This document shows, piece after piece, positions 5,303 through 64,000 of a DNA stretch of 64,000 nucleotides. This DNA is from Streptomyces aquilus. GTDB lineage: Bacteria > Actinomycetota > Actinomycetes > Streptomycetales > Streptomycetaceae. Each line of letters opens with the position of its first letter. Position 1 is the first letter of the stretch. A program made the translations under genes and the position numbers. Under the pieces are notes generated by a model. The model did no database searches and was not told the DNA's origin. It saw only the letters and a list, made by a program, of their open reading frames with translations. Location: positions 8,432,001-8,496,000 of the forward strand of contig NZ_CP034463.1 of assembly GCF_003955715.1 (NCBI RefSeq). Direction: 5' to 3'.

Positions 5303-6286
5303 ATGAACCGCACCGCAAGGGCGTTCTGGCTCAACAGTCCGGGTGAAGGCGAGATACGGGAGGTCACCCTTCCGGCCCCCGCCGCGGACGAGGTGCTGGT
5401 CCGCGCCCTGTGGTCCGGCGTCAGCCGCGGCACCGAGACGCTCGTCTTCCGCGGCGGAGTCCCCGCCAGCCAGCACGCGGCGATGCGGGCACCCTTCCAG
5501 GAGGGCGAGTTCCCCGCCCCCGTGAAATACGGCTACCTCAGTGTCGGAGAGGTCGAGGAGGGGCCGGCGGAACTGGTGGGGCGCACGGTCTTCTGCCTCT
5601 ACCCGCACCAGACGCGGTACGTCGTCCCGGCCGCCGCCGTCACCGTCGTACCGGACGCCGTGCCCGCCGAACGCGCCGTCCTCGCCGGCACCGTGGAGAC
5701 CGCCGTCAACGCCCTGTGGGACGCGGCACCCCTGGTCGGGGACCGGATCGCGGTGGTGGGCGGGGGGATGGTCGGCTGCTCGGTGGCCGCGCTGCTGGCC
5801 CGCTTCCCCGGTGTACGGGTGCAACTCGTCGACGCCGATCCCTCCCGCGCGAAGACCGCAGAGGCGCTCGGCGTCGGCTTCGCGCTGCCGCCGGACGCGC
5901 TCGGCGAATGCGACCTCGTCGTGCACGCCAGCGCCACCGAGCAGGGACTCACCCGCGCGCTGGAACTCCTCACCGCCGAGGGCACCGTCCTCGAACTGAG
6001 CTGGTACGGCGACCGGCAGGTGAGCCTCCCGCTCGGCGAGGCCTTCCACTCCCGCCGCCTCGTCATCCGCTCCAGCCAGGTCGGCACCGTCTCCCCGGCC
6101 CGCCGCGCCAGCCGCAGCTACGCCGACCGGCTCGCCCTCGCCCTCGAACTGCTCGCCGACCCGTCACTCGACGCGCTCATCACGGGGGAAAGCGTGTTCG
6201 AGGAGTTGCCGGCTGTGATGCCGAAGCTCGCGGCGGGGGAGATTCCGGCCCTTTGTCACCGCATCAGGTACGGCAAGAGCGCCTGA
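5303..6286 (+). CDS. MDR-superfamily dehydrogenase lacking the zinc motif
   Basis: A 327-residue medium-chain dehydrogenase. The N-terminal GroES-like part contains '[15 protein letters not shown]', as in BchC-like and threonine dehydrogenase-like MDR proteins. The Rossmann part has the nucleotide site '[17 protein letters not shown]' near residue 155. The usual catalytic GHE zinc motif is replaced by '[11 protein letters not shown]', and the four-cysteine structural zinc loop is absent, so a zinc-independent oxidoreductase is likely. An ATG at 5297 directly abuts AGGAGG; the ATG at 5303 has a six-base spacing and is preferred. It is the first gene of the left-to-right run that continues with the PTPS homologue. 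The substrate is unknown. Confidence 0.82.
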
Positions 6287-6291
6287 CCTGA

Positions 6292-7984
<1,693 letters not shown>

Positions 7985-7988
<4 letters not shown>

Positions 7989-9274
7989 GGAAGACGGCTA
8001 CCACGGAGCGCAGCGGCAGGATCCCGGCCCAGCCGGGGCCGCGAGCCGAGACGGGCGGCAGCGGAGACGCGTCCCTCTTGCCCTCGGCGAGCACGGAGGC
8101 GTCCCTCCTGCCCTCGGCCGGCGGAGAGGCATCTCTCCTGCCCTCGGCGAGCACGGAGACGTCCCTCCTGCCCTCGGCCGGCGGGGAGGCGTCCCTCCTG
8201 CCCTCGGCGAGTGCGGGCGTCAGCGCGGAGGCGTCCCCCATGCGCCCGTTGACCGCGGGCGTCAGCGCGGAGGCCTCCCCCCTGCGCCCCATCAGCGCGA
8301 GCGGAACCGCGGAGGTGCCCCCCATGCCCACGCCGTCCGCGGTGCCGGACCCGGCCGCCGACTCCGTGATCCCCGGTGCCGGGCCCACCGCCGCCCGCCC
8401 GGGTGAGCGTCCCACCGTGCGGCTCCGCGAGGACGGTCCCGACGAGCAGCCCCGGTACGCGCCCGAGTGGCTGGAGCTGCGCGAGCCGGCCGACGCGGCC
8501 GCGCGGGCGCACGATCTGCTCGACCCGCTGCGCATCCGCCTGGCGAACCTGCCCGGAAAGTCGGGCCTGGTCATCCACGACCTCGGCTGCGGCACCGGAT
8601 CGATGGGCCGCTGGCTCGCCCCCCGCCTCGACGGCGCCCAGCACTGGGTCCTGCACGACCGCGACCCCTACCTCCTGCACTTCGCCGCCGTCGCCTCCCC
8701 GCGCGTCGCCGCCGACGGCAGCCGCGTCACCGTCGAGACCCGGCGCGGCGACGTCGCCCGGCTCACCCCGGACGCCCTCTCGGGCGCCTCCCTGGTGACC
8801 GCCTCCGCGCTCCTCGACGTCCTCACCCGCGAGGAGATCGACACCCTCGCCGAGGCCTGCACCGGCGCCGGCTGCCCGGCCCTGCTCACCCTGTCGGTGG
8901 CCGGTCGCGTCGACCTCACCCCGTCCCACCCGATGGACACGGAGATCATGGAGGCGTTCAACGCCCACCAGCGCCGCGCCGGCCTCCTCGGTCCGGACTC
9001 GGTCACGGCGGCCTGCGAGGCCTTCTCCGAGCGCGGGGCGACGGTACGCCTGAACCCCAGCCCCTGGCGGCTCGGCCCCGCCGAGGCCGCGCTCACCGCG
9101 CAGTGGCTGCGCGGCTGGGTCGGCGCGGCGGTGGAGCAGCGTCCGGAGCTGAAGGAGCGGGCCGAGGGCTATCTCCGGGAGCGCCTGGAGGCGTGTGAGG
9201 CGGGCGAGTTGACTGTCCTGGTCCACCACACGGACCTGCTGGCGCTGTCCCGGCCGACGGGCGGGGCGGCATGA
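7985..9274 (+). CDS. Class I SAM-dependent methyltransferase with a repetitive N-terminal extension
   Basis: A 429-residue protein. Residues about 175-400 form a class I methyltransferase with SAM motif I 'VIHDLGCGTGSMGRWLAP'. The first roughly 150 residues are low-complexity and probably disordered: five 10-residue repeats of the ASLLPSASTE/ASLLPSAGGE type (residues 29-78), then two 14-residue VSAEASP[M/L]RP repeats, then a Pro-rich linker. The ATG at 7985 overlaps the glycosyltransferase stop by ATGA, and the gene overlaps the next by ATGA. The substrate is unknown. The long frame open upstream of 7985 is antisense-free extension inside the glycosyltransferase gene and is not used. Confidence 0.85.
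8069..8302 (+). repeat. In-frame tandem repeats: five 30-bp units then two 42-bp units
   Basis: Five consecutive 30-bp units (8069, 8099, 8129, 8159, 8189) each encode A/T-S-L-L-P-S-A-x-x-E/G. They alternate between a 'SASTE' and a 'SAGGE' ending, so the ancestral duplicating unit may have been 60 bp. Two 42-bp units (8219, 8261) follow, encoding VSAEASP[M/L]RP plus four residues. All lengths are multiples of three, so copy-number change would leave the methyltransferase in frame. Confidence 0.95.
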
Positions 9275-10617
9275 GCGTGGAGACGGTACGGGCGTACGGG
9301 GTGCGCACGCCGCCGTCGGGCGGCCGCACGAGGCAGGGGGCCGCCGCGTCGGTCCTTCCGGTCGAGGTGACGGGCAGGGACGTTTCCGCCGCCGAGGGCG
9401 AGGCCGCCGCCACCCTCACCGACCGCACCCCTGACACCGCCGGCCTCGTCCTCGTACCCCCCGTCAAGGCCGTCCCGCCACCGGACGTCGCCGTCGCCGA
9501 CTCCCGTATCGGCGTGATCGTCTCCACCCCCCGCCCCGAAGCCGCCACCCCCCACACCCCGCGGTGGCGCCGCGCCCTCGCCCGCCTCAAGTCACCGGCC
9601 GTGCGCACCCACGTGGGCAGTGCCGTCGGCGTCGTCATCCTCGCCGTCCTGCTGTGGCGGCTCGGTACCGGGGTCTTCCTGGACGGGCTGCGGCGGATCG
9701 ACGGCGGGTCGCTGATCGCCGCGGTCGGGATCGGTGTCGTCACGACCGTGTTCAGCGCCTGGCGCTGGCAGTTGGTGGCCCGGGGGCTGAAGATCCGGCT
9801 GCCGCTCGGGCCGGCCGTCGCCGCCTACTACCGCGCGCTGTTCCTCAACGCGGCGCTCCCCGGCGGCGTCCTCGGTGACGTCCACCGGGCGGTGCGGCAC
9901 GGGCAGAGCACCCGCGACCTCGGGCGCTGTGTGCGGGCCGTCGTCCTCGAACGGGTCGCCGGGCAGCTCGCGTTGGCGTTCGTCGGCGCCGGCATCCTGC
10001 TCACCATGCCGTCGCCGGTGCTGAACCAGGCCCGGGACCTCGCGCCGGTGCTGCTGTTCGCCCTGGTGGGTGCGCTGGCCGTCGTACTCGCCCTGCGGAT
10101 GAACCGGACGCCCGCGCGGTACGGCCGGACGCTGGCCGAGGTGCGTGAGGGGCTGCTGTCCCGGCGCAACGGCCCGGGCGTCGCGCTGTCGTCCCTCGTC
10201 GTCCTCGCCGGGCACATCGGGATGTTCGTGCTCGCCGCCCGGGTCGCCGGGTCCGCCGCCTCCGTCGCCGTACTGCTGCCGATCGCCGTCCTGGCGCTGC
10301 TCGCCATGGGACTGCCGCTCAACGTCGGCGGCTGGGGACCCCGTGAGGGCGTCACCGCCTGGGCGTTCGGCGCGGCCGGCCTCGGGGCGAGCAGCGGGCT
10401 GGCCGTCGCCGTCGTGTACGGGGTACTCAGCCTCGTGGCCAGCCTGCCCGGTGTGCTGGTCCTGCTCGCCCGCTACCCGCGCAAGGAGTCACCGGAGCTG
10501 TCGGAGGTGAGCAGTGACAAGTACGGTCGGAACGCGTCCGCCAGGCTCTCCAGCAGCGCCTTGCCCTTTTCCGCCGAACCCAGCGAGGGACGGCCGATGA
10601 CACCGGAATCGGTATAG
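9271..10617 (+). CDS. UPF0104/LPG-synthase-TM family integral membrane protein
   Basis: A 448-residue membrane protein. After about 110 polar, Pro/Ala-rich residues come at least seven transmembrane segments with the family hallmarks 'NAALPGGVLGDVHRAVRHG' (near residue 195) and 'GWGPREGVTAWAFGAAG' (near residue 355). This is the membrane part of lysylphosphatidylglycerol synthase/flippase proteins, without the soluble aminoacyltransferase domain. The ATG overlaps the methyltransferase stop. The last 48 residues, after 'VLVLLARYPRK', look random and lie antisense to the C-terminus of the creatininase gene; the original stop may have been lost. Confidence 0.85.
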   Translation: MSVETVRAYGVRTPPSGGRTRQGAAASVLPVEVTGRDVSAAEGEAAATLTDRTPDTAGLVLVPPVKAVPPPDVAVADSRIGVIVSTPRPEAATPHTPRWRRALARLKSPAVRTHVGSAVGVVILAVLLWRLGTGVFLDGLRRIDGGSLIAAVGIGVVTTVFSAWRWQLVARGLKIRLPLGPAVAAYYRALFLNAALPGGVLGDVHRAVRHGQSTRDLGRCVRAVVLERVAGQLALAFVGAGILLTMPSPVLNQARDLAPVLLFALVGALAVVLALRMNRTPARYGRTLAEVREGLLSRRNGPGVALSSLVVLAGHIGMFVLAARVAGSAASVAVLLPIAVLALLAMGLPLNVGGWGPREGVTAWAFGAAGLGASSGLAVAVVYGVLSLVASLPGVLVLLARYPRKESPELSEVSSDKYGRNASARLSSSALPFSAEPSEGRPMTPESV

Positions 10618-53174: not shown

Positions 53175-54689
53175 ATGCGCAACGAGGGACTGGGGTCGTG
53201 GCCCGCACGCCGGGCCCGCAAGACCCCGCACCGCACCGCACTGGTGCACGGCGACACGACATGGACGTACGCCCAGCTGTACGAGCGCACGACCCGCCTC
53301 GCGCACGCCCTGCGGGCCCGGGGCGTCCGCCGCGGCGACCGGATCGCCTACCTCGGCCCGAACCACCCCTCCTACCTGGAGACGCTGTTCGCGGCGGGCA
53401 CCCTCGGCGCGGTCTTCGTCCCGCTCAACATCCGCCTCGCCGGCCCGGAGATCGCCTACCAGCTCGCCGACTCCGGCGCCAAGGCGCTCGTCTACGGCCC
53501 CCAGTACGCGGGCCTGGTCGCGGGCCTGCCGGGCGACACGGACGTACGGTCGTACGTGGAGGTGGGCGCCGAGTACGAGGAGGAGCTGGCGAGGTCCTCC
53601 AGCGAGCCGATCGACCAACCGGTGACGCCCGACGACACCTGCATCATCATGTACACCTCGGGGACGACGGGCCGTCCCAAGGGCGCGATGCTCACCCACG
53701 GCAACCTGACCTGGAACGCGATCAACGTCCTGGTCGACCACGACCTGATCGCCGACGAACGTGCCCTGGTCTCGGCCCCGTTGTTCCACACGGCGGGCCT
53801 GAACATGCTGACCCTGCCGGTGTTGTTGAAGGGCGGCACCTGCGTCCTGGTGGAGGCCTTCGACCCGTCGGCGACCTTCGACCTGATCGAACGCCACCGG
53901 ATCACCTTCATGTTCGGCGTCCCGACGATGTTCGAGCAGGTCGCCCGCCACCCGCGCTGGCCGGACGCGGACCTCTCCTCCCTCCGCATCCTCACCTGCG
54001 GCGGCTCACCGGTCTCCACCTCGATGATCGCGGCATACCAGGAACGCGGCCTGAACTTCCTCCAGGGCTACGGCATGACGGAAGCCGCCCCCGGCACGCT
54101 CTTCCTGGACGCCGAACACGCGGTCGCCAAGGCCGGTTCGGCGGGCGTACCGCACTTCTTCAGCGACGTACGGGTCGTACGTCCGGACATGGCACCGGTC
54201 GACGTCGGCGAGACCGGCGAGGTGGTGATCCGCGGCCCCCATGTCATGCCCGGCTACTGGGGGTTGCCGGAGGAGACGGCCGCCTCCTTCACGGACGGCT
54301 GGTTCCGCAGCGGGGACGCCGCCCGTGTCGACGAGGACGGCTATGTCTTCATCGTCGACCGCATCAAGGACATGATCATCTCGGGTGGCGAGAACATCTA
54401 CCCCGCCGAGATCGAGGACCTGCTCCTCACCCACCCCGACATCGTCGAGTGCGCGGTCATCGGCGTGCCGGACGACAAGTGGGGCGAGGTGCCGCGCGCG
54501 GTCGTGGTCCCCCGCGAGGGCGCCTTCCTCGACCCCGACGCGGTACTGGCCTCCCTGGCCGGCCGCCTCGCCAAGTACAAGATCCCCAAGTCGGTGGTCA
54601 TCGCGGCCGAGTTGCCGCGCACCGCCTCCGGAAAACTCCTCAAGTCCCGCGTCCGTACCCGGTACGGCCACAGCGAAGGAACCTCATGA
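53175..54689 (+). CDS. Acyl-CoA ligase, AMP-binding family
   Basis: A 504-residue adenylating enzyme that would activate a carboxylic acid to its CoA ester. 'IIMYTSGTTGRPKGAMLTH' is the phosphate loop, 'GYGMTEAAPGTLF' the adenine-site motif, and 'FRSGDAARVDEDGYVFIVDRIKDMIISGGENIYPAEIE' the hinge and A8 region. The catalytic Lys is in 'LPRTASGKLLKSRVR'. Length is normal. The stop overlaps the MaoC start by ATGA. The acid could be aromatic, terpenoid or fatty. Confidence 0.92.
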   Translation: MRNEGLGSWPARRARKTPHRTALVHGDTTWTYAQLYERTTRLAHALRARGVRRGDRIAYLGPNHPSYLETLFAAGTLGAVFVPLNIRLAGPEIAYQLADSGAKALVYGPQYAGLVAGLPGDTDVRSYVEVGAEYEEELARSSSEPIDQPVTPDDTCIIMYTSGTTGRPKGAMLTHGNLTWNAINVLVDHDLIADERALVSAPLFHTAGLNMLTLPVLLKGGTCVLVEAFDPSATFDLIERHRITFMFGVPTMFEQVARHPRWPDADLSSLRILTCGGSPVSTSMIAAYQERGLNFLQGYGMTEAAPGTLFLDAEHAVAKAGSAGVPHFFSDVRVVRPDMAPVDVGETGEVVIRGPHVMPGYWGLPEETAASFTDGWFRSGDAARVDEDGYVFIVDRIKDMIISGGENIYPAEIEDLLLTHPDIVECAVIGVPDDKWGEVPRAVVVPREGAFLDPDAVLASLAGRLAKYKIPKSVVIAAELPRTASGKLLKSRVRTRYGHSEGTS

Positions 54690-55141
54690 GCATCACCGTC
54701 AACGGCCTCGACGAACTCAAGAAGCTGGCCGGCAGCGACCTGGGCACCAGCGCGTGGATCGAGGTCACCCAGGACCGCATCAACACCTTCGCCGACGCGA
54801 CGGGCGACCACCAGTGGATCCACGTCGACCCGGAACGCGCGGCCGAGGGCCCCTTCGGCGCCCCGATCGCACACGGCTATCTGACCCTCTCCCTGTTCAT
54901 CCCCCTGTTCACTGAACTGCTGGACGTCCAGGGCGTCACGACAAAGGTCAACTACGGCCTGAACAAGGTCCGTTTCCCGTCCCCGGTGAAGGTGGGCTCA
55001 CGCATCCGACTGGTGGCGAAGCTGGCGGACGTCGAGGACGTGCCGGGTGGAGTCCAGATCACGGTCGACGGGGCGATCGAGATCGAGGGCGGGGGGAAGC
55101 CGGCGGCGGTGTTGCAGAGTCTTTCGCGGTTCTACGCCTGA
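54686..55141 (+). CDS. MaoC-like dehydratase
   Basis: A 151-residue hot-dog-fold enoyl-CoA hydratase. The hydratase 2 motif is 'FADATGDHQWIHVDPERAAEGPFGAPIAHGYLTLSL', with catalytic Asp and His. Such single-domain proteins hydrate enoyl-CoA to (R)-3-hydroxyacyl-CoA. As last gene of the operon it could act after the ligase and before the SDR oxidation. AAGGA precedes the ATG. Confidence 0.92.
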   Translation: MSITVNGLDELKKLAGSDLGTSAWIEVTQDRINTFADATGDHQWIHVDPERAAEGPFGAPIAHGYLTLSLFIPLFTELLDVQGVTTKVNYGLNKVRFPSPVKVGSRIRLVAKLADVEDVPGGVQITVDGAIEIEGGGKPAAVLQSLSRFYA

Positions 55142-55393
55142 GCAGCCGGACGCGAGGGGCGGACGGCCGGGCTCAAAGCTGATTCGAGGGGCGCTCCAGG
55201 CGCACACCCGTTAATCTGACCAAGGCTGTCCACCCCCGGAGAGATCGGTCACCCGACAGGAGCCAGTTTCGGGTCGCGTGTATCCGTGGTGGCTTGCCTG
55301 GCCTTATTGTGCAGCCAAAAGCCGCTTCGTCGAATCGGCGAAGGGTTCCTCACCTCTGCCCTCCGGGGCCTCAAAACTCCGACAAGGAATGCC
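55142..55393. other. Leader region upstream of the FxSxx-COOH locus
   Basis: About 250 bp between the MaoC gene and the precursor gene. It is more AT-rich than its surroundings ('GGCCTTATTGTGCAGCCAAAA' near 55300 is the richest part) and should hold the locus promoter. I see no gene and no clear hairpin; no -35/-10 pair is good enough to name. Confidence 0.4.
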
Positions 55394-55579
55394 GTGACCA
55401 TTCCAGCAAGAACCACTGCAGGCACGTCTGTGCAGTCGGTAGGCGTCACCGAGCCGCCCAAGGCCTCGGTGCGTTTCGACGCTCCGCACGACCCGAAGAG
55501 CGTCCGAGGGATGCGTCGCGCCCTGTCGGCCCGCCATGTGCCCAAAGAGGCCGGGGTGACCTTCAACTCCTCCATCTGA
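55394..55579 (+). CDS. fxsA: FxSxx-COOH precursor peptide (FxsA)
   Basis: A 61-residue peptide ending V-T-F57-N58-S59-S60-I61, the F-x-S-x-x carboxy-terminus that defines the FxsA family. The rest is a polar, basic leader with no cysteines. GTG at 55394 is preceded by AAGGA and gives the family's normal length; the upstream frame to 55286 would be atypical. The downstream radical SAM enzyme is expected to join the Phe ring to the beta-carbon of Ser59, forming a three-residue cyclophane, as reported for FxsB-type enzymes. What the modified peptide does is unknown. Confidence 0.88.
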   Translation: MTIPARTTAGTSVQSVGVTEPPKASVRFDAPHDPKSVRGMRRALSARHVPKEAGVTFNSSI

Positions 55580-55599
55580 CGGCAGTAACCACTTCCATC

Positions 55600-57753
55600 G
55601 TGACCAGTTCGCCCGTTCCGCTACGGCAGCTCGTACTCAAGGTGCACAGCAGGTGCGATCTCGCCTGCAAACACTGTTACGTGTATGAGGGGGCCGATCA
55701 GAGCTGGAGCGACCGGCCCAAGGCGATCTCGGAAGAGACGATCTCCTGGACGGCACTCCGGCTGGCGGAACACGCCAAGCGCCATATGCTCGCCTCCGTG
55801 CAGGTGATTTTGCACGGAGGCGAGCCTTTGTTGGTCGGCCCGACCCGCTTACGTCACATCTGCGAACAGCTGCACACGGCCCTGGACGGTGTGTGTGATC
55901 TCGAACTCCGTGTCCACACCAACGGCGTTCAGCTGAGCGAGCGCTACCTCGATCTGTTCGCCGAGTTCGGCGTCGGGGTGGGGATCTCGCTGGACGGAGA
56001 TCGGTCGGCCAATGATCGATACCGCGTCTACGCGGATGGCCGAAGCAGCTACGACAAAGTGCTCAGAGCGATCGATCGGCTGAACGAGGATCGCTACCGT
56101 CATCTGTTCAAGGGCATCCTCTGCACCGTCGACGTACGCAATGATCCACTCGCCGTCTATGACGCGCTGGCCGAGACTCGGGCGCCTCGCATCGACTTCC
56201 TGCTGCCCCACGCGACGTGGGACACCCCACCCCTGCGTCCGGAGGGTGCGGCCACCCCGTACGCGGGCTGGCTGCTGGCCGTCCACGACCGTTGGAGCGC
56301 ACAGGGCCGTCCGATGCCGGTGCGGCTGTTCGATTCGGTGATCAGTACGCTCGGCGGCGGTCCGAGCCTCACCGAGGCCATGGGGCTGGAGTCCGCCGAC
56401 GTCGTCGTGGTGGAGACCGACGGCAGCTATGAACAAGCCGACTCGCTCAAGATCGCCTACGACGGGGCACCCGCCACCGGACGGACGGTCTTCCGCCACA
56501 CCTTCGACGAGGTGGCGGACCATCCCGGGATGATCGCTCGACAGCAGGGGCTGGACGGCCTGTGTGAGCAGTGTCGCGCCTGTCCGGTGGTGCGGTCCTG
56601 CGGCGGTGGGCTGTTCGCCCACCGACATCGCAGCGACGGGACGGGATTTGACAATCCGTCAGTCTATTGTGCGGACCTCCTGGAGCTGATCCGCTCGCTC
56701 GACGCCCGCACCGCTGTCGGCATGGACCGGCCGATCGAAGGCTTCGACGCCCTCGCCGACGGCTCGGACGACGGCACCGCGGCGCGGGTGCTCCTCGAGA
56801 CCAGGCAATCCGTCACGCTGGAAATGATCACCTCGATCGAGCGGAAGCGGGCGCCGGACGACCGGGAGGTCTGGGACGCCGCCTGGCGGCTGGCCCTGGA
56901 CCTGGGCGCGCGAGACGGTGCGCTCCTCGCACCTCTCGTAGCCCATCCGTATGCCCGCACCTGGGCCGTGCGCTGCCTGGACGGCTCGGCTCCACCCGAT
57001 CACCTGGCCTCTCTGGTGGCGGCCGTCGCCTTCCCGGCGGGAGCTGCCGACGCGATGGTGGTGCCCGTGCGCGACGGGTACGCCCATCTGCCGATGCTCG
57101 GGCGCCTGCGCGCGCCCGTGGCCTCCGGCAACGTCGTCTCCGGGAACCTGCGGGTGACCAGGGACCAGCTGGTCGACGGGACGGCGGGCTGGGAAGGCGT
57201 ACGCCGGATCCAGGTCGCCGGGGTGGACATCGCTCTGGACGACGTCGACCTCTACCGGGACTGTTTCGGCGGCTTGGCCGCGGAGCGGTTGCCGGACGAG
57301 GACGTCGCACGATGGCAGCACGTGCTGCCGCAATCCTGGGCGCACATCCGCGCGTCCCTGCCTGCCGTCGCCACCGCCATGGCGGCGCACGTACGGACCG
57401 TCACCCCGCTCGTCGCCGACCCCGCGCCCGAACTCGTTGTCCCGGAAGGCGGGTTCACCGCCCTCGGGCTGCGTTTCGCCCCCGATCCGGTGCGCATGGC
57501 GGTGGACCTGGTCCGTGGGTTCCGGCTGGGTCTCCTGGACGCCCTGCTGGACGTGTGCGAACTGTACGACGAGGCGGACACCCGGACCGCCGAACTGCTC
57601 GCCGACACCTACGCGCGACTGGCCACCGACCCGCTACGGAGCGATCCTGAGGCCGTGCGCCGCACCCGATCGCAGTGGGCACAGCTGTCGGCCACGGCCT
57701 CGCTGAGTCCGCTCGGGCGGCGATTCGTCGACGGCATGGGGAGGGGACTGTGA
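55600..57753 (+). CDS. fxsB: Radical SAM/SPASM peptide maturase FxsB
   Basis: A 717-residue maturase. Residues 1-250 form the radical SAM core with iron-sulfur cysteines C19, C23 and C26 in 'CDLACKHCYVYEG'. A SPASM region around 'GLCEQCRACPVVRSCGGGLF' and 'PSVYCADLL' holds auxiliary cluster cysteines. Residues about 390-717 correspond to the HExxH metalloprotein-like extension of FxsB, but the place of the motif reads 'DLVRGFRLGLLDALLD', so both histidines and the Glu are gone. The GTG at 55600 is 20 bp after fxsA and has no strong ribosome site, so coupling to fxsA is likely. It overlaps the next gene by GTGA. Confidence 0.9.
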   Translation: MTSSPVPLRQLVLKVHSRCDLACKHCYVYEGADQSWSDRPKAISEETISWTALRLAEHAKRHMLASVQVILHGGEPLLVGPTRLRHICEQLHTALDGVCDLELRVHTNGVQLSERYLDLFAEFGVGVGISLDGDRSANDRYRVYADGRSSYDKVLRAIDRLNEDRYRHLFKGILCTVDVRNDPLAVYDALAETRAPRIDFLLPHATWDTPPLRPEGAATPYAGWLLAVHDRWSAQGRPMPVRLFDSVISTLGGGPSLTEAMGLESADVVVVETDGSYEQADSLKIAYDGAPATGRTVFRHTFDEVADHPGMIARQQGLDGLCEQCRACPVVRSCGGGLFAHRHRSDGTGFDNPSVYCADLLELIRSLDARTAVGMDRPIEGFDALADGSDDGTAARVLLETRQSVTLEMITSIERKRAPDDREVWDAAWRLALDLGARDGALLAPLVAHPYARTWAVRCLDGSAPPDHLASLVAAVAFPAGAADAMVVPVRDGYAHLPMLGRLRAPVASGNVVSGNLRVTRDQLVDGTAGWEGVRRIQVAGVDIALDDVDLYRDCFGGLAAERLPDEDVARWQHVLPQSWAHIRASLPAVATAMAAHVRTVTPLVADPAPELVVPEGGFTALGLRFAPDPVRMAVDLVRGFRLGLLDALLDVCELYDEADTRTAELLADTYARLATDPLRSDPEAVRRTRSQWAQLSATASLSPLGRRFVDGMGRGL

Positions 57754-58586
57754 CCGACGACCGGTCGCTCGTCGAGGGGCTGGAAAGGCTGGGCGTTCGC
57801 CCCGGGGCGACTCTTCTGGTGCACGCGTCCCTGCGCCGGCTGGGCACGGCGCCCGACGCGGTCCTGGCGGCTCTGCTCGACGCGCTGGGCCCCGAAGGGA
57901 CGGTGGTCGTGCCGACGTTCACCGCCGGCAACTCCGACACCTCACGGGCGTACCGGGAAGCCACTCGGCACATGACGAGGCGTCAGCGTCACGCGTACCT
58001 GGCGGAGATGCCGGCGTTCGACCCGGCGGTCACGCCCTCCGAGGACATGGGCCGGCTCGCTGAGACCGTGCGGTGCGCGCAGGGTGCGGTGCGCAGCGGA
58101 CACCCGCAGACGTCTTTCGCCGCCTTGGGCGCGCGTGCGGCCGAGTTGGTGGCCGGGCACGACGAGACCTGTCACCTCGGCCCGCGGTCTCCGCTCGGCC
58201 GGCTGTACGACACCCGGGCCCAGGTGCTGTTCCTCGGTGTGGGGTACGAGAGCTGCAGCGCCTTCCATCTCGCCGAGTACCGCGTCGACGGCGCGCCCCG
58301 GAAGGAATACCGCTGTGTGGTGCTGCGGGACGGGGCGCGGCACTGGATGGCGTACAAGGACGTCGACCTCGACGACGAGGACTTCGGAGCGCTCGGAGAG
58401 GCCTTCGAGGCGCGCCACGCCCCTGGTGCCGGATCCGTCGTGTGCCGCGGGCAGGTCGGATACGCGGACGCCCGGCTGTTCCCCGTGCGGGAGGCCGTGG
58501 ACTTCGCCGTCACATGGCTGGCCGGAAATCGTCCACTCGGCATTCACACGGACCCATCACAAAACGCTGCACGGTTCCTACACTGA
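57750..58586 (+). CDS. AAC(3)-family N-acetyltransferase of the FxSxx-COOH locus
   Basis: A 278-residue protein of the aminoglycoside 3-N-acetyltransferase family. 'LLVHASLRRLG', 'GPEGTVVVPTFTAGNSD', 'GHPQTSFAALG' and 'HLGPRSPLGRLYDTRAQVLFLGVGYESCSAFHLAEY' are family signatures. The GTG overlaps the fxsB stop, with GGGAGGGG upstream. Family members occur in many FxSxx-COOH loci, so acetylation of the peptide or a partner, rather than antibiotic resistance, is the likely role; this is inference. Confidence 0.88.
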   Translation: MTDDRSLVEGLERLGVRPGATLLVHASLRRLGTAPDAVLAALLDALGPEGTVVVPTFTAGNSDTSRAYREATRHMTRRQRHAYLAEMPAFDPAVTPSEDMGRLAETVRCAQGAVRSGHPQTSFAALGARAAELVAGHDETCHLGPRSPLGRLYDTRAQVLFLGVGYESCSAFHLAEYRVDGAPRKEYRCVVLRDGARHWMAYKDVDLDDEDFGALGEAFEARHAPGAGSVVCRGQVGYADARLFPVREAVDFAVTWLAGNRPLGIHTDPSQNAARFLH

Positions 58587-58628
58587 GTGTCCGCCCCTCG
58601 CGGGACGGAGGCGGGATCGGGGGATCGC

Positions 58629-59906
58629 GTGGTGCCGACGGAATCCATGGGGACAGCGTCCAAAGGGCCCTACTTCTTTCTCAGTTACGCCCACACCCCC
58701 TCGGACGGCCTGGGCAAGTCCGAACCCAACTTATGGGTCCGCCGCCTCTACGGCGATCTGTGCGCCCATATAAGGGAAATGACGACCGTGCAGGGCGATC
58801 TGGCGGGGTTCATGGACAGCACCTCGATACGCACCGGTGACGACTGGCCCACCGCGCTCGCCGAATCCCTCGCCGCCTGCCGGGTGTTCGTGCCGCTGTA
58901 CTCCCCGCGCTACTTCATCAGCCCTTGGTGCGGCAAGGAATGGACAGTGTTCAGCCGTCGGCAGGCCACGGGTCAGGGCGAGCGGCGCATCGGTGCGACG
59001 AGCGCGGTGGTCCCGGCCCTCTGGTCGCCGGTGCGCGATCACCAACTCCCCCTGTGTGTGCGGAATGTGCAGTACACGCACTCCGAACTAGGGCACCGCT
59101 ATCAGGAGTACGGACTGTACGGCCTGGTAAAGGTCAGCTCGTTCCGTGCCGACTATCAGCGCGCCGTACTCCATCTGGCCCGCCGTATCGTCGAGATCGG
59201 TGAGACTGTCGCCGTGGAACCCGGTACCCATGCGCACCTGCAGGGGGCGGACGACGCCTTCGCCCCCGAGCCCGCGCTGCCGACGGGGCCGACGCTGCGG
59301 ATCACCGTGGCCGCCGGCGCTCTGGGCAGGCTGCCGGAGAGACGCAGCCCGCTCTACTACGGGCCCACGCCGCTGCACTGGAACCCCTATCACCCCGAGT
59401 CCGCCTACCCGCTGGTCACGCTGGTCGCCAATATTGTCGAAGGCCTCAACTACCGTGTGATCGTGCGTGAGTTGGACCAGGAAGCGGACCTGGTCGACGG
59501 TCCGGAGATCCTGCTGCTCGATCGCTGGGTGCTCCGCGACCCCAAGCACCGCGCGCGGCTGCGGGAGCTGGACACAGAACACCGCTCGTCGACCGGTCTG
59601 GTGGTGCCGTGGAACAGCGCGGACCCCGACGGCAGTGCCGGGCAGCACGAACTGGCCGCCGCGGTCGACGAGGCCCTGCCGCGCGCCACCAGCCTGCAAC
59701 GGCAGGGTGGGAGGGCCGGTGCCCTGAGCATCCCGGACCTCGGATCCTTCAGGGCGCTGCTGCCGCAGGTGGTCGAAGCGGCGGCGAACTCGTACCTCTC
59801 CAGCGCCGGGACAGCACTGCCCGGCGAGAGCACTCCGCGCTTCAAGCTGGGCGCCGCCGGGCCGCCGCCGGGCGCGTCCCCCACTTGGGCACGGCCGGGA
59901 CTTTGA
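58629..59906 (+). CDS. fxsC: TIR domain protein FxsC
   Basis: A protein of about 425 residues. The TIR domain opens with 'YFFLSYAHTPSDG' and has 'MDSTSIRTGDDWPTALAESLAACRVFVPLYSPRYFISPWCGKEW'. The Glu in WCGKE is the residue that acts as catalytic Glu in NAD-cleaving TIRs, so activity is possible. The C-terminal half is a second alpha/beta domain ('GPEILLLDRWVLRDPKHR') of unknown function. In-frame GTGs occur at 58587, 58629 and 58632; GGGGGA just before the latter two favours them. FxsC-type proteins are standard in FxSxx-COOH loci. Confidence 0.88.
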   Translation: MVPTESMGTASKGPYFFLSYAHTPSDGLGKSEPNLWVRRLYGDLCAHIREMTTVQGDLAGFMDSTSIRTGDDWPTALAESLAACRVFVPLYSPRYFISPWCGKEWTVFSRRQATGQGERRIGATSAVVPALWSPVRDHQLPLCVRNVQYTHSELGHRYQEYGLYGLVKVSSFRADYQRAVLHLARRIVEIGETVAVEPGTHAHLQGADDAFAPEPALPTGPTLRITVAAGALGRLPERRSPLYYGPTPLHWNPYHPESAYPLVTLVANIVEGLNYRVIVRELDQEADLVDGPEILLLDRWVLRDPKHRARLRELDTEHRSSTGLVVPWNSADPDGSAGQHELAAAVDEALPRATSLQRQGGRAGALSIPDLGSFRALLPQVVEAAANSYLSSAGTALPGESTPRFKLGAAGPPPGASPTWARPGL

Positions 59907-59920
59907 GGAGGAAGTCCGCG

Positions 59921-62900
59921 ATGAGCAGCCTCGACGAACCGAACGGCCGCCAGGGTCGCATCGTGACGTTCTACTCGTACAAGGGCGGAACCGGCCGGAC
60001 GATGGCCCTCGCCAACACCGCTTGGATCCTTGCCGCCAACGGCAAACGGGTGCTCGCCGTGGACTGGGATCTGGAGGCCCCTGGCCTGCACCGGTTCTTC
60101 CATCCCTTTCTCGACCCGGCGACCCTCGGCGCCACCACCGGCGTCATCGACCTGCTGAAGGACTACGCGTGGGCCGCGGTCGGCGAAGGCGCGACCGAGG
60201 ATCGGCCGCCGCACTGGTACCGCGACTACGCGCGCGTCCAACGTCACGCCGTCTCGCTGGACTGGTCCTTCCCCGAGCCTGGCACGCTCGACCTGGTGAC
60301 CGCCGGCCAGCAGGACCGCGACTACTCGGCGACCGTGAGCACCTTCGACTGGGACAACTTCTACGAACGCCTCGGTGGCGGCGAGTTCTTCGACGCGTTA
60401 CGCGAGGACATGCGCGAGAACTACGACTACGTCCTCATCGACAGCCGCACCGGTCTGTCCGACATCGCCGACATCTGCACCGCCCACCTGCCCGACATCC
60501 TGGTCGACTGCTTCACTCTCAGCGGTCAGAGCATCGACGGCGCCTCCTTTGTCGCCCGCGACATCCACGAACGGTTCCACCGGCGCCGTATACGCATCCT
60601 GCCCGTCCCCATGCGCATCGATGAAGGGGAGAAGGAGAAGGCCGACGCCGGACGGTCGCTGGCCCGGGCGAAGTTCGACGGCTTCCCCGCCGGCATGACC
60701 GAAGAGGAACTCACCGCGTACTGGGGTGCCGTGGAGGTCCCGTACCGGCCCTACTACGGGTACGAGGAGACACTGGCCACCTTCGGTGACGCGGCCGGCG
60801 CGAACCCCACCTCCCTGCTGTCGGCCTTCGAACGGCTCAGCAGCGTCATCAGCGACCGGGACGTCACCTCGCTGCCCGCGGTCGACGAGGAGGAGCGTCG
60901 GCGCATCAACAAGATGTTCACCCGCACGCGCTCACACCTTCCCACGGACCTGCACCTCAGCTATGTCTCCGAGGACCGGATGTGGGCCGAGTGGATCGCC
61001 GCGCTGCTGACCCGCGCGGGATTCCGGGTGATGCCGAAATACGTCGGCGCCGAGGGCGACGGCGCGGAGAACCCGGCCGACCGTACCGTCGTCGTGGTCT
61101 CGGCGGCCTACCAGCGCTCCGGACGAGCCCGCCAGGTCTGGGAGGCCGCCACCGGCGGTGACCCCACGGGACGCCGTCAGGTGGTCGGGGTCCGCGTCGG
61201 CGACTTCCGGCTGGCGCCCGCCTTCAGTGAGTCGGCCTCGGTCGACCTCGTCCGCACCACGGAGAAGAACGCCGCGTCCACCCTGCTGAGGGCACTGGGC
61301 AAGCCGTCCCTGCCGGCCGACCTGCCCGATGACGAGGTGACTCCCGATGCCCGGTTCCCGGGCAACACGCCGCGGTTCTGGAACGTGTCGCCGCGCAACG
61401 CTTCCTTCACCGGCCGGTCCGCGCTGCTGGAGCGGCTGCGTGACGGCCTCACCGGCAGCGGTTCCGCCGAATCCTCGCCGGTGTACGCCCTGTCCGGGCT
61501 GGGCGGTGTCGGCAAGACGCAGATCGCTCTGGAGTACGTGCACCGGTTCGCCGCCGACTACGACCTGGTGTGGTGGATCCCCTCCGAACAGAACGAACTC
61601 ATCGTCTCCTCGCTGGCCACGCTCGCCGGCCGGCTCGATCTGCGGGTCGGCGACGAGGCGGCGCAGGTGGCGCAGGAGGTGCGCGACCATCTGCGGCAGT
61701 CGAGCCCGACCCTGCGCTGGCTCCTCGTCTTCGACAACGCCGACGAGCCGCAGGAGGTCAGCCAGCACTTCCCCGGAGGCAGCGGGCATGTCCTGGTGAC
61801 CTCGCGCAACCAGACCTGGCTCCAGTTCGGCAAGGCCCTTGAGATCGACCCGTTCCTGCGCGAGGAGAGCGTCGAGCATCTGCGACGCCGGGCGGCGGAC
61901 CTTTCGGACGAGGACGCCGACCGGGTGGCCGCCGCGGTGGGAGACCTGCCGCTCGCTCTCGACCAGGCCGGCGCCTGGCTCGCCGAGACCGGTACGCCGG
62001 TCGACACCTATCTGGCGGAACTGGATCAGCAGGCCGAGCGGGTCCTGTCCCTGAGCCAGCCCGCCAACTACCCGAAGCCGGTCGGGGCGACCTGGAACGT
62101 CTCCATCGAACGGCTCAAGCAGCGTTCACCGGCAGCCGTACGACTGCTGCAACTGTGCGCCTTCTTCGCGGCCGAACCCATTTCGCTGAAGCTGCTCTAC
62201 GGCGACGAGATGATCCGCGTCCTCGCCAGCGAGGACCCCACTCTGCAGGAGAAGATGGTCCTCGGCCAGGTGATCCGGGAGATCGGCCGGTTCGCACTGG
62301 CCAAGGTCGACCGGGCCACCGAGTCGATCCAGGTGCACCGGTTGGTGCAGGCCGTCATCCGCTCCCAGCTCAGCGCGAAGGAGCAGGAAGAGGCCCAGCA
62401 CGTCGTCCACCGCATCCTGGCCGGGGCGCGGCCCTCGGGCGAGGAGCCGATCGACGACCCGTCGAACCAGGCCGACTTCGCGGCGATCTGGCCGCACCTG
62501 GAAGCCTCCGAGGCGAGTACGTGCGACGAGACCGAGACGCGACAGCTGCTCATCGACCGACTGCGCTATCTGTGGCGACGTGGTGACCTGATCTCGGCAT
62601 TCTCCCTCGGCGAGGAACTGCAGGCACTGTGGAGGCGCCAGCTCGCGAGGCGCCGTGCGGACGTCGTGCAGTTGGAACGAGCGATCGCGGAGAGTGACGC
62701 GGCCGCCGGCTCACGGGACGAACTCGTGCTGGCGCGGCGCAACGCCGACAACCTGGAGGCCCAACTGCTCCACCTGCGGTTCCACATCGGGAACGTGCTG
62801 CGGACGATGGGCAAGTACGTGGAGGCGGAGGAGCTGGGCTCCGAGACCCTGGACCGCCAACGCGCTCTGCTGGCCCCGGGGCATCCGCACATCCTCATGA

Positions 62901-63961
62901 CGGCCAGCGCGCTCGCGATCGACCTCGGCAGCGTCGGCCGCTTCGACGACGCCCTGGCGATGGCGACGGAGGCGCACTCGGGCTTCCTGGAGACCCTCGG
63001 AGAGGATCACCCCCGCACTCTCAGTGCCAAGAACAACCGTGCCCTGTGCCTGCGCCAGCTCGGCCGCTACGCCGAAGCCCGCGACGTGGACCAGGAGATC
63101 TACGATCGCCGTCGCAACGACCTGGGCGCCGACCACCCGTCCACGCTGAGCAGCGTCACCAACCTGGGCCGGGATCTGCGGGAACTCGGTGAGTACCGTG
63201 ACTCGATCGCGCTCCTGAGCACCGGTTACGAGTCGTACCTCCGCAGGTTCGGCGACTCCCATCCCGACACCCTGCGTACCGCGAAGAGCCTCGCGGTGTC
63301 GCTTCGCAAGGCCGGACGGGTCGAGGAGGGACGGGACCTGACCCGGCAGACCCGCGACCACTACCGGCTGCGAGGCACCGCACAGACGACCCCGGACGTG
63401 CTCGACTGCACCCTGAACTACGCGACGGACCTGTACGCCATCGGGTCCCGTGCCGAGGCGCTCGCGCTGGCGCAGGACACGGTACGCCAGTACCAGTCAG
63501 CACCCGGCCAGCGGCATCCGTCCACGCTGGCCGCGATCAACAACCTCGGGATCTTCCTGCGCGGATGCAGGGAGACGGTCCCGGCGCGCGCGCTGATGGA
63601 ACAGAACTTCGCCACCCTGCGTGAGGTGCTGGGCGACCGCCACCCCTACACCCTGGCCTGTGCGGTGAACCTCGCCAACATCCAGGCCGAACTGGGTGAA
63701 CTGCACGAGGCCGAGAAGCTCGAGCGGATGGCCGTGGCCGGGTTCCAGGGAGCCCTGGAGGTGGATCACCCCGACACCATTGTGGCCCGCGCCAACCTGG
63801 CCGTGACACTGCGCGCACTGGACCGGCTCCCGGAGGCGGACCAGCTCAGGGAGAAGGCCCATGCCGATCTCATGCGGCTGCTGGGGGAGGACCATCCGCA
63901 CACGGTGAGCGTGCGCGAGGGCAAGCGCATCCACCGGGACCTGGAACCCTTGCCGGTCTGA
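59921..63961 (+). CDS. fxsT: FxSxx-COOH system NB-ARC/TPR protein (FxsT)
   Basis: A 1346-residue multidomain protein. Residues 13-330 form a MinD/ParA-like ATPase with deviant P-loop 'SYKGGTGRT' (21-27) and 'LIDSRTGLSDIADI'. Residues 343-455 are a TIR-like domain ('LHLSYVSEDRMWAEWIAALL', 'VVVVSAAYQRS'). Residues 495-720 are NB-ARC: Walker A 'SGLGGVGKTQIAL' (525-537), Walker B 'LLVFDNADEP', 'LVTSRN' and GLPL-like 'GDLPLALDQAGAWL'. From about 800 to the end come kinesin-light-chain-like TPRs with repeated 'G.DHP.TL'. The ATG follows GAGGAGGAA. This looks like a STAND-type switch coupled to the peptide and to FxsC. Confidence 0.9.
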   Translation: MSSLDEPNGRQGRIVTFYSYKGGTGRTMALANTAWILAANGKRVLAVDWDLEAPGLHRFFHPFLDPATLGATTGVIDLLKDYAWAAVGEGATEDRPPHWYRDYARVQRHAVSLDWSFPEPGTLDLVTAGQQDRDYSATVSTFDWDNFYERLGGGEFFDALREDMRENYDYVLIDSRTGLSDIADICTAHLPDILVDCFTLSGQSIDGASFVARDIHERFHRRRIRILPVPMRIDEGEKEKADAGRSLARAKFDGFPAGMTEEELTAYWGAVEVPYRPYYGYEETLATFGDAAGANPTSLLSAFERLSSVISDRDVTSLPAVDEEERRRINKMFTRTRSHLPTDLHLSYVSEDRMWAEWIAALLTRAGFRVMPKYVGAEGDGAENPADRTVVVVSAAYQRSGRARQVWEAATGGDPTGRRQVVGVRVGDFRLAPAFSESASVDLVRTTEKNAASTLLRALGKPSLPADLPDDEVTPDARFPGNTPRFWNVSPRNASFTGRSALLERLRDGLTGSGSAESSPVYALSGLGGVGKTQIALEYVHRFAADYDLVWWIPSEQNELIVSSLATLAGRLDLRVGDEAAQVAQEVRDHLRQSSPTLRWLLVFDNADEPQEVSQHFPGGSGHVLVTSRNQTWLQFGKALEIDPFLREESVEHLRRRAADLSDEDADRVAAAVGDLPLALDQAGAWLAETGTPVDTYLAELDQQAERVLSLSQPANYPKPVGATWNVSIERLKQRSPAAVRLLQLCAFFAAEPISLKLLYGDEMIRVLASEDPTLQEKMVLGQVIREIGRFALAKVDRATESIQVHRLVQAVIRSQLSAKEQEEAQHVVHRILAGARPSGEEPIDDPSNQADFAAIWPHLEASEASTCDETETRQLLIDRLRYLWRRGDLISAFSLGEELQALWRRQLARRRADVVQLERAIAESDAAAGSRDELVLARRNADNLEAQLLHLRFHIGNVLRTMGKYVEAEELGSETLDRQRALLAPGHPHILMTASALAIDLGSVGRFDDALAMATEAHSGFLETLGEDHPRTLSAKNNRALCLRQLGRYAEARDVDQEIYDRRRNDLGADHPSTLSSVTNLGRDLRELGEYRDSIALLSTGYESYLRRFGDSHPDTLRTAKSLAVSLRKAGRVEEGRDLTRQTRDHYRLRGTAQTTPDVLDCTLNYATDLYAIGSRAEALALAQDTVRQYQSAPGQRHPSTLAAINNLGIFLRGCRETVPARALMEQNFATLREVLGDRHPYTLACAVNLANIQAELGELHEAEKLERMAVAGFQGALEVDHPDTIVARANLAVTLRALDRLPEADQLREKAHADLMRLLGEDHPHTVSVREGKRIHRDLEPLPV

Positions 63962-64000
63962 GCGGCCTCTCCTCAGGAGCGGTGGGTCGCCAGCCGGGCC

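Follow-up and report, generated by a model that had tools for sequence, protein, structure and literature searches.

Gene content of the locus

The window analysed here is a 64,000-nucleotide (nt) stretch of the Streptomyces aquilus genome (10.39 Mb, single contig NZ_CP034463.1). Near its right end lies an FxSxx-COOH locus, in which five genes run head to tail at 55394-63961 (Table 1). The starts, stops and frames of all five were verified, and the nearest named loci of the maturase FxsB are from Streptomyces. Against NCBIfam, FxsB scored 574.7 bits with TIGR04269 (curated cut-off 370), FxsC 204.5 bits with NF040588 (cut-off 130) and 146.8 with TIGR04276 (cut-off 55), and FxsT 978 bits with NF040586 (cut-off 300) and 143.9 with the KGGVGR ATPase model NF047398 (cut-off 90). 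FxsA matched no family model in NCBIfam or the other profile scans and was identified by its C terminus and its place: the FNSSI-ending precursor stops 20 bases ahead of fxsB, the arrangement of precursor beside FxsB that is expected of an FxSxx-COOH system. The AAC(3)-like protein scored 255.7 bits with PF02522 (scanned with a 25-codon upstream extension) and stayed under every NCBIfam AAC cut-off. An Rfam scan of the window returned nothing at gathering score. By the scores of FxsB, FxsC and FxsT, the gene set is the FxSxx-COOH system of NCBIfam, as a sequence-only reading of this DNA had proposed with the same coordinates. FxsB was also considered as a prokaryotic viperin (pVip) and rejected, because a match of 37.1 bits beside that to TIGR04269 is a superfamily cross-hit.

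This kind of system is already known. In the available excerpts, Kaur et al. 2020 (PMC7159879) describe standalone actinobacterial peptide-processing systems in which an AP-ATPase carries an inactive MinD/ParA-like domain. They predict a conflict system and suggest that the peptide, coupled to an ATPase of this kind, is a toxin or signal. The peptide-ATPase proposal is therefore not new; the sequence-only reading had called the family itself catalogued and its role not established. The maturase, the FxSxx peptide, the TIR-like FxsC and an AP-ATPase with tetratricopeptide repeats (TPRs) and a MinD/ParA-like domain are shared, the last being FxsT. In contrast to that system, the HExxH domain here is fused and appears dead, an alpha/beta hydrolase gene belongs to the cassette and SLATT genes are neighbours in relatives. 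Among the literature matches listed, this was the one paper that treats the FxSxx-COOH system; a fungal paper (PMC12734244), in the part available, uses the FxSxx name as an annotation label only.

Table 1. Positions of the cassette and its genes in window coordinates
Feature	Position	Strand	Basis
FxsA precursor, 61 aa (amino acids), GTG start, C-terminal FNSSI	55394-55579	+	C terminus and place
FxsB radical SAM/SPASM maturase (residues 8-367) with C-terminal HExxH-type domain, motif lost	55600-57753	+	717 aa; TIGR04269
AAC(3)-like protein, 278 aa	57750-58586	+	PF02522; start overlaps FxsB stop by 4 bases
FxsC, 439 aa: TIR (residues ~27-206, catalytic-type Glu118) and C-terminal FxsC domain	58587-59906	+	NF040588, TIGR04276
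FxsT, 1346 aa, ATG start: in order, KGGTGR MinD/ParA-like domain, Glu-less TIR, NB-ARC, TPRs	59921-63961	+	NF040586, NF047398, PF13676, PF00931, PF13424
Convergent alpha/beta hydrolase gene	63973-64866 (only the 3' end, 63973-64000, inside the window)	-	PF00561
Cassette	55142-64000 within the window; right end ~65004-65045, past the window	.	Empty sites in relatives

A present-or-absent cassette of six genes

An empty-site comparison was anchored on the MaoC-like gene at 54686-55141, directly left of the locus. It was matched in 87 of 121 genomes of the genus, and the comparison used the 30 best-matching places, which have 83-100% identity and include that of the window itself. FxsB followed the anchor in 5 of these and was absent from 25 orthologous sites. 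In the empty sites, homology to the window genome resumed at 65045-65084 (7 sites), 65893-65900 (4), 66705-66748 (9) or 78102 (1); four had no later downstream match, and one of these four had a brief hit elsewhere, in an unrelated region. The shortest jump takes out 55142 to ~65045, about 9.9 kb with the five genes and the convergent hydrolase gene. The locus is a discrete present-or-absent cassette of six genes that reaches past the window end. The five genes of the sequence-only reading are as it gave them, but the unit does not stop there. Neither a repeat nor a tRNA marks the cassette ends. GC content at third codon positions is 76-89% in the cassette genes versus 90-98% in four left-hand neighbours.

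After dereplication at 92% identity, 52 of 56 window-type loci had the hydrolase, 49 of them in convergent orientation 3' of fxsT and the other 3 on the upstream side of fxsA, at most 1.7 kb away. The gap to fxsT has a median of 55 bases across the hydrolase cluster. Held-out loci carried the gene in 57 of 76 cases, the fetched ends often cutting through it, and none of 40 other FxsB loci had it. The protein matches PF00561 (71 and 75 bits) and has conserved Ser, Asp and His columns of catalytic type, which we take to be the catalytic residues. The hydrolase as a cassette member is an addition to earlier descriptions of the FxSxx-COOH system; the available excerpts of PMC7159879 mention neither it nor SLATT neighbours for this system.

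Active-type and Glu-less TIR domains

The catalytic-type Glu of the FxsC TIR domain (E118) is kept in 85/85 proteins. Structure models were made for FxsC and for residues 1-515 of FxsT, and fold comparison backs the domains assigned to both proteins in Table 1. The C-x-x-E motif of FxsC aligned with that of plant RUN1 (a weak match, E 0.4), which sets E118 opposite a Glu that, from the numbering and the title of 7s2z, would be RUN1 E100. FxsT has a TIR domain of its own (PF13676, residues 346-454), which the sequence-only reading had missed while naming the NB-ARC, ParA and TPR parts correctly. This domain has the catalytic Glu in 0/83 proteins; the NB-ARC P-loop is intact in 83/83. By these residues, the FxsC TIR would be of the NAD-cleaving type and the FxsT TIR looks catalytically dead. 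In the ParA-like domain of FxsT (window 59921-60700, residues 1-260), KGGTGRT is strictly conserved (84/84). Because of this conservation, the domain described as inactive is probably functional, for example in nucleotide binding without the usual Lys.

FxsC also occurs on two plasmids as the C terminus of a SAV_2336-type protein adjoining an AAA gene. On one of them, the Streptomyces plasmid NZ_CP109474.1, a single chain of 1566 aa (5521-10218 of the stretch read) starts with a SAV_2336 N-terminal domain, continues with FxsT-type TPRs (NF040586 positions 427-807) and ends in FxsC. The best indication that FxsC acts jointly with TPRs of the FxsT type comes from this natural fusion, and FxsC may be a movable output module. 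An integrase and a Tn3 transposase lie near the fusion gene, which itself adjoins the AAA gene. The window genome holds a second FxsC (414 aa, above the cut-off of both FxsC models) that adjoins a 1383-aa KGGVGR protein (genome ~7896826-7901162). That KGGVGR protein had no FxSxx TPR match, and FxsB is absent at this place. The two genes are apparently the same output pair without a peptide.

The FxsB HExxH state tracks a motif in FxsA

The C-terminal domain of FxsB is related to alpha-ketoglutarate HExxH enzymes, and its HExxH column reads RGFRL in the window. NF040587, the model for the inactivated extension form FxsBH, gave 141.1 bits, below its cut-off of 225. The window FxsB lacks the zincin-like HExxH active site, and no separate HExxH gene is among the six cassette genes. 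In the window lineage the domain thus appears dead and would neither cut nor hydroxylate. Together with the Glu-less TIR of FxsT, the lost motif speaks against the earlier statement that all core parts are intact.

FxsA was detected by the pattern F.S..$, so the invariance of F and S is uninformative. In the first set of 93 loci, two duplicates were removed and FxsA was present in 87. For a held-out set, 100 loci were fetched; after removal of 10 near-duplicates, 13 without the pattern, 1 without the extension and 2 spurious peptides, 74 remained. The 17 loci that failed the pattern (4 first set, 13 held-out) are outside all counts; about 14 show a variant core just upstream (for instance VAAFQASI, VAAFQSSLL or, with HExxH lost, GITFESSIG) and 3 show none.

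In the first set, Ala precedes the core Phe (position -1) in 36/39 HExxH-positive loci versus 1/48 HExxH-lost loci, and Val stands at -3 in 35/39 versus 6/48. All four HExxH-loss branches coincided with loss of a V-A-A-like motif, as did 0 of 20000 random placements, the motif having been chosen afterwards. The held-out set gave V-A-A-like motifs in 30/42 versus 0/32 and V(-3) in 38/42 versus 4/32. Over both sets, the motif stands just before the crosslink site in 66/81 HExxH-positive and 0/80 HExxH-lost loci. On the combined tree (n = 167), five of the six HExxH-loss branches also lost V(-3) and four lost the V-A-A-like motif (each matched by 0 of 5000 random placements), whereas Ala(-1) taken by itself was lost on one of the six (2209 of 5000 placements). 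With independent pairs, the median p was 0.03 for V(-3) (7 pairs) and 0.06 for the V-A-A-like motif. Two apparent HExxH regains indicate that the tree or the HExxH states are imperfect.

Since the HExxH state tracks this motif, the domain most likely acts on FxsA there, by cutting or by hydroxylating. There is an even chance, in our judgement, that the link reflects beta-hydroxylation or mere recognition and not oxidative backbone cutting. The characterised fused radical SAM/HExxH enzymes beta-hydroxylate Asp and His, according to the summary of a 2025 preprint (PMC12636437); V(-3) follows the HExxH state more closely than Ala(-1) alone; and several HExxH-positive loci have Arg or Lys at -1. 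Cutting is favoured by PosC and PflC, HExxH enzymes that, in the same partly available source, cleave the backbone at Ala, partly at Gly, and only hydroxylate larger residues. It is also favoured by the other FxsB loci beside a separate HExxH gene, where 16 of 17 FxsA peptides have Ala or Gly at -1 (a hand count that omits one spurious peptide and one without a core F and includes one 2.7 kb from FxsB). Asn stands at -1 in two loci where no HExxH gene was found. Repeated-core precursors (GNFNSFI...GNFNSFI), possibly multi-core FxsA, lie upstream of FxsB in two loci, again with no HExxH gene found.

A candidate peptide-gated switch

We read the locus as an accessory conflict cassette, a self-alarm in which an intracellular peptide would gate a STAND (signal transduction ATPase with numerous domains)/TIR switch, and consider this about as probable as all other readings together. 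The lack of an exporter in the cassette, the intact STAND P-loop, the TIR Glu, the SLATT neighbours and the present-or-absent inheritance favour an intracellular alarm. These features, apart from the exporter, and the plasmid TPR-FxsC fusion partly support the sense-and-respond immune switch of the sequence-only reading, although not every core part looks intact.

In the proposed mechanism, FxsB would introduce a crosslink at the F-N-S core of its precursor FxsA and so form a cyclophane, as expected from the FxsB family, whose enzymes are known cyclophane formers. With no exporter in the cassette, modified FxsA would stay inside the cell and act as a ligand or restraint of FxsT, a STAND ATPase similar to nucleotide-binding leucine-rich repeat receptors (NLRs), read most likely through the TPRs. 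This role fits and is suggested by gene order. When the balance is upset by a trigger, FxsT may assemble and gather FxsC, perhaps through its own dead TIR, and the FxsC TIR would then cleave NAD or make a nucleotide signal. Further outputs probably include the hydrolase and, in many relatives, a protein of the SLATT pore type.

A SLATT_3-SLATT_1 protein (PF18184, 126-134 bits) flanks 32 of the 56 window-type loci at a distance of up to 2.1 kb. SLATT proteins accompany TIR-type effectors in other conflict systems described in the excerpts of PMC7159879. A protein of ~154 aa with a VTGHR motif lies near 26 of the 56; one sub-threshold DprA match was the sole profile match for the two proteins scanned, so the label SLOG-like is tentative. 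Each gene was found at 2 of 40 other FxsB loci. Hydrolase, SLATT and SLOG-like genes were the commonest shared neighbour families, and no transporter was common among the top clusters. This neighbourhood bears on the possibility that FxsA is a secreted antimicrobial or signalling peptide, with FxsC and FxsT as its immunity or regulation. In favour of such a role, FxsB comes from a maturase family of ribosomally synthesized and post-translationally modified peptides (RiPPs), and the window locus encodes an AAC(3)-like enzyme of tailoring or immunity type, as do 41 of 80 loci with sufficient flank. Profile scans of the six genes revealed no exporter and no dedicated leader protease and, with no common transporter neighbour, we regard secretion as quite unlikely.

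Distribution across genomes

We scored 196 genomes of the class and 14 control genomes by the curated cut-offs. The class genomes above cut-off numbered 41 for FxsB, 20 for FxsC and 57 for FxsT, and no control genome passed any of the three. The window layout (long FxsB, FxsC and long FxsT in the same order) occurred at 13 of 53 above-cut-off FxsB places, with FxsA detected at 12 of the 13, which argues against a chance arrangement; 7 of the 13 have an AAC-like gene. The remaining 40 places are without the long-extension layout, and a separate HExxH gene was found at 31 of them. In the family of the window genome, 143/297 genomes match at E <= 1e-155, and in a second actinobacterial family 53/200 match. 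One short contig labelled as an Acidobacteriaceae metagenome-assembled genome (JASIAO010000132.1) carries an HExxH-positive FxsB with FxsA, either by transfer or as a mis-binned actinobacterial contig.

Several observations weigh against a conflict cassette. The SLATT and SLOG-like genes are absent from the window and 18 kb beyond. FxsB was not found in phages, and 0/5 plasmid records held the full cassette. PADLOC returned cross-hits only (pVip, 37 bits; PDC-M28B, 79 bits on the KGGVGR part). About half of the family's genomes hold the system at stable clade-specific places, a pattern that is compatible with a physiological role as well. The cassette may instead be a developmental or physiological regulator (e.g., of sporulation or programmed lysis), with FxsA as an internal signal and the STAND, TIR and hydrolase proteins serving colony life. 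Its confinement in our samples to actinobacteria, save the one metagenome-assembled genome, and its positions with shared flanks are consistent with this. However, the cassette is missing at 25 of the 30 orthologous sites compared in one genus and is thus dispensable, and both the SLATT neighbours and the fusion of FxsC to conflict proteins of SAV_2336/AAA type speak for conflict. We consider a regulatory role unlikely.

Relation to known systems and implications

In the excerpts of PMC7159879, some VMAP/MoxR-vWA ternary systems have an FxSxx peptide, a radical SAM enzyme and TIR/AP-ATPase effectors, and the plasmid fusions of FxsC to SAV_2336-type proteins beside AAA genes recall them; no vWA or MoxR gene is among the six cassette genes. 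Thoeris is similar in its TIR enzyme and, tentatively, in the SLOG-like neighbours of some relatives. It was rejected, since no ThsA/ThsB-type proteins are present and the best model, ThcB4, scored 23.4 bits against a cut-off of 220. Plant TIR-NB-LRR receptors share the TIR, NB-ARC and repeat logic, in addition to the RUN1 alignment. In contrast to them, the active-type TIR here is on a separate protein, TPRs replace leucine-rich repeats, and a ParA-like domain, a maturase and a peptide are added.

A more specific form of the self-alarm, which we put forward as speculative and rather doubtful, is a bacterial NLR licensed by a crosslinked peptide. FxsT would read the C-terminal cyclophane of FxsA through its TPRs and gate the separate FxsC TIR enzyme, and the response would also run through the hydrolase and SLATT pores. 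In HExxH-positive lineages the fused domain would cut FxsA oxidatively at V-A-A and free a short acyl-capped cyclophane; in the window lineage, where the cutter would have died and the site drifted to V-T, the uncut protein would signal.

The hydrolase, the split between live and dead TIR domains and the HExxH/V-A-A link each give a gene or residue to change, and the last predicts where the HExxH domain acts on FxsA. If an NLR-like receptor is gated by a crosslinked peptide, innate immunity in bacteria would come to include RiPP chemistry, and what a widespread peptide family lacking a known function does would become directly testable.

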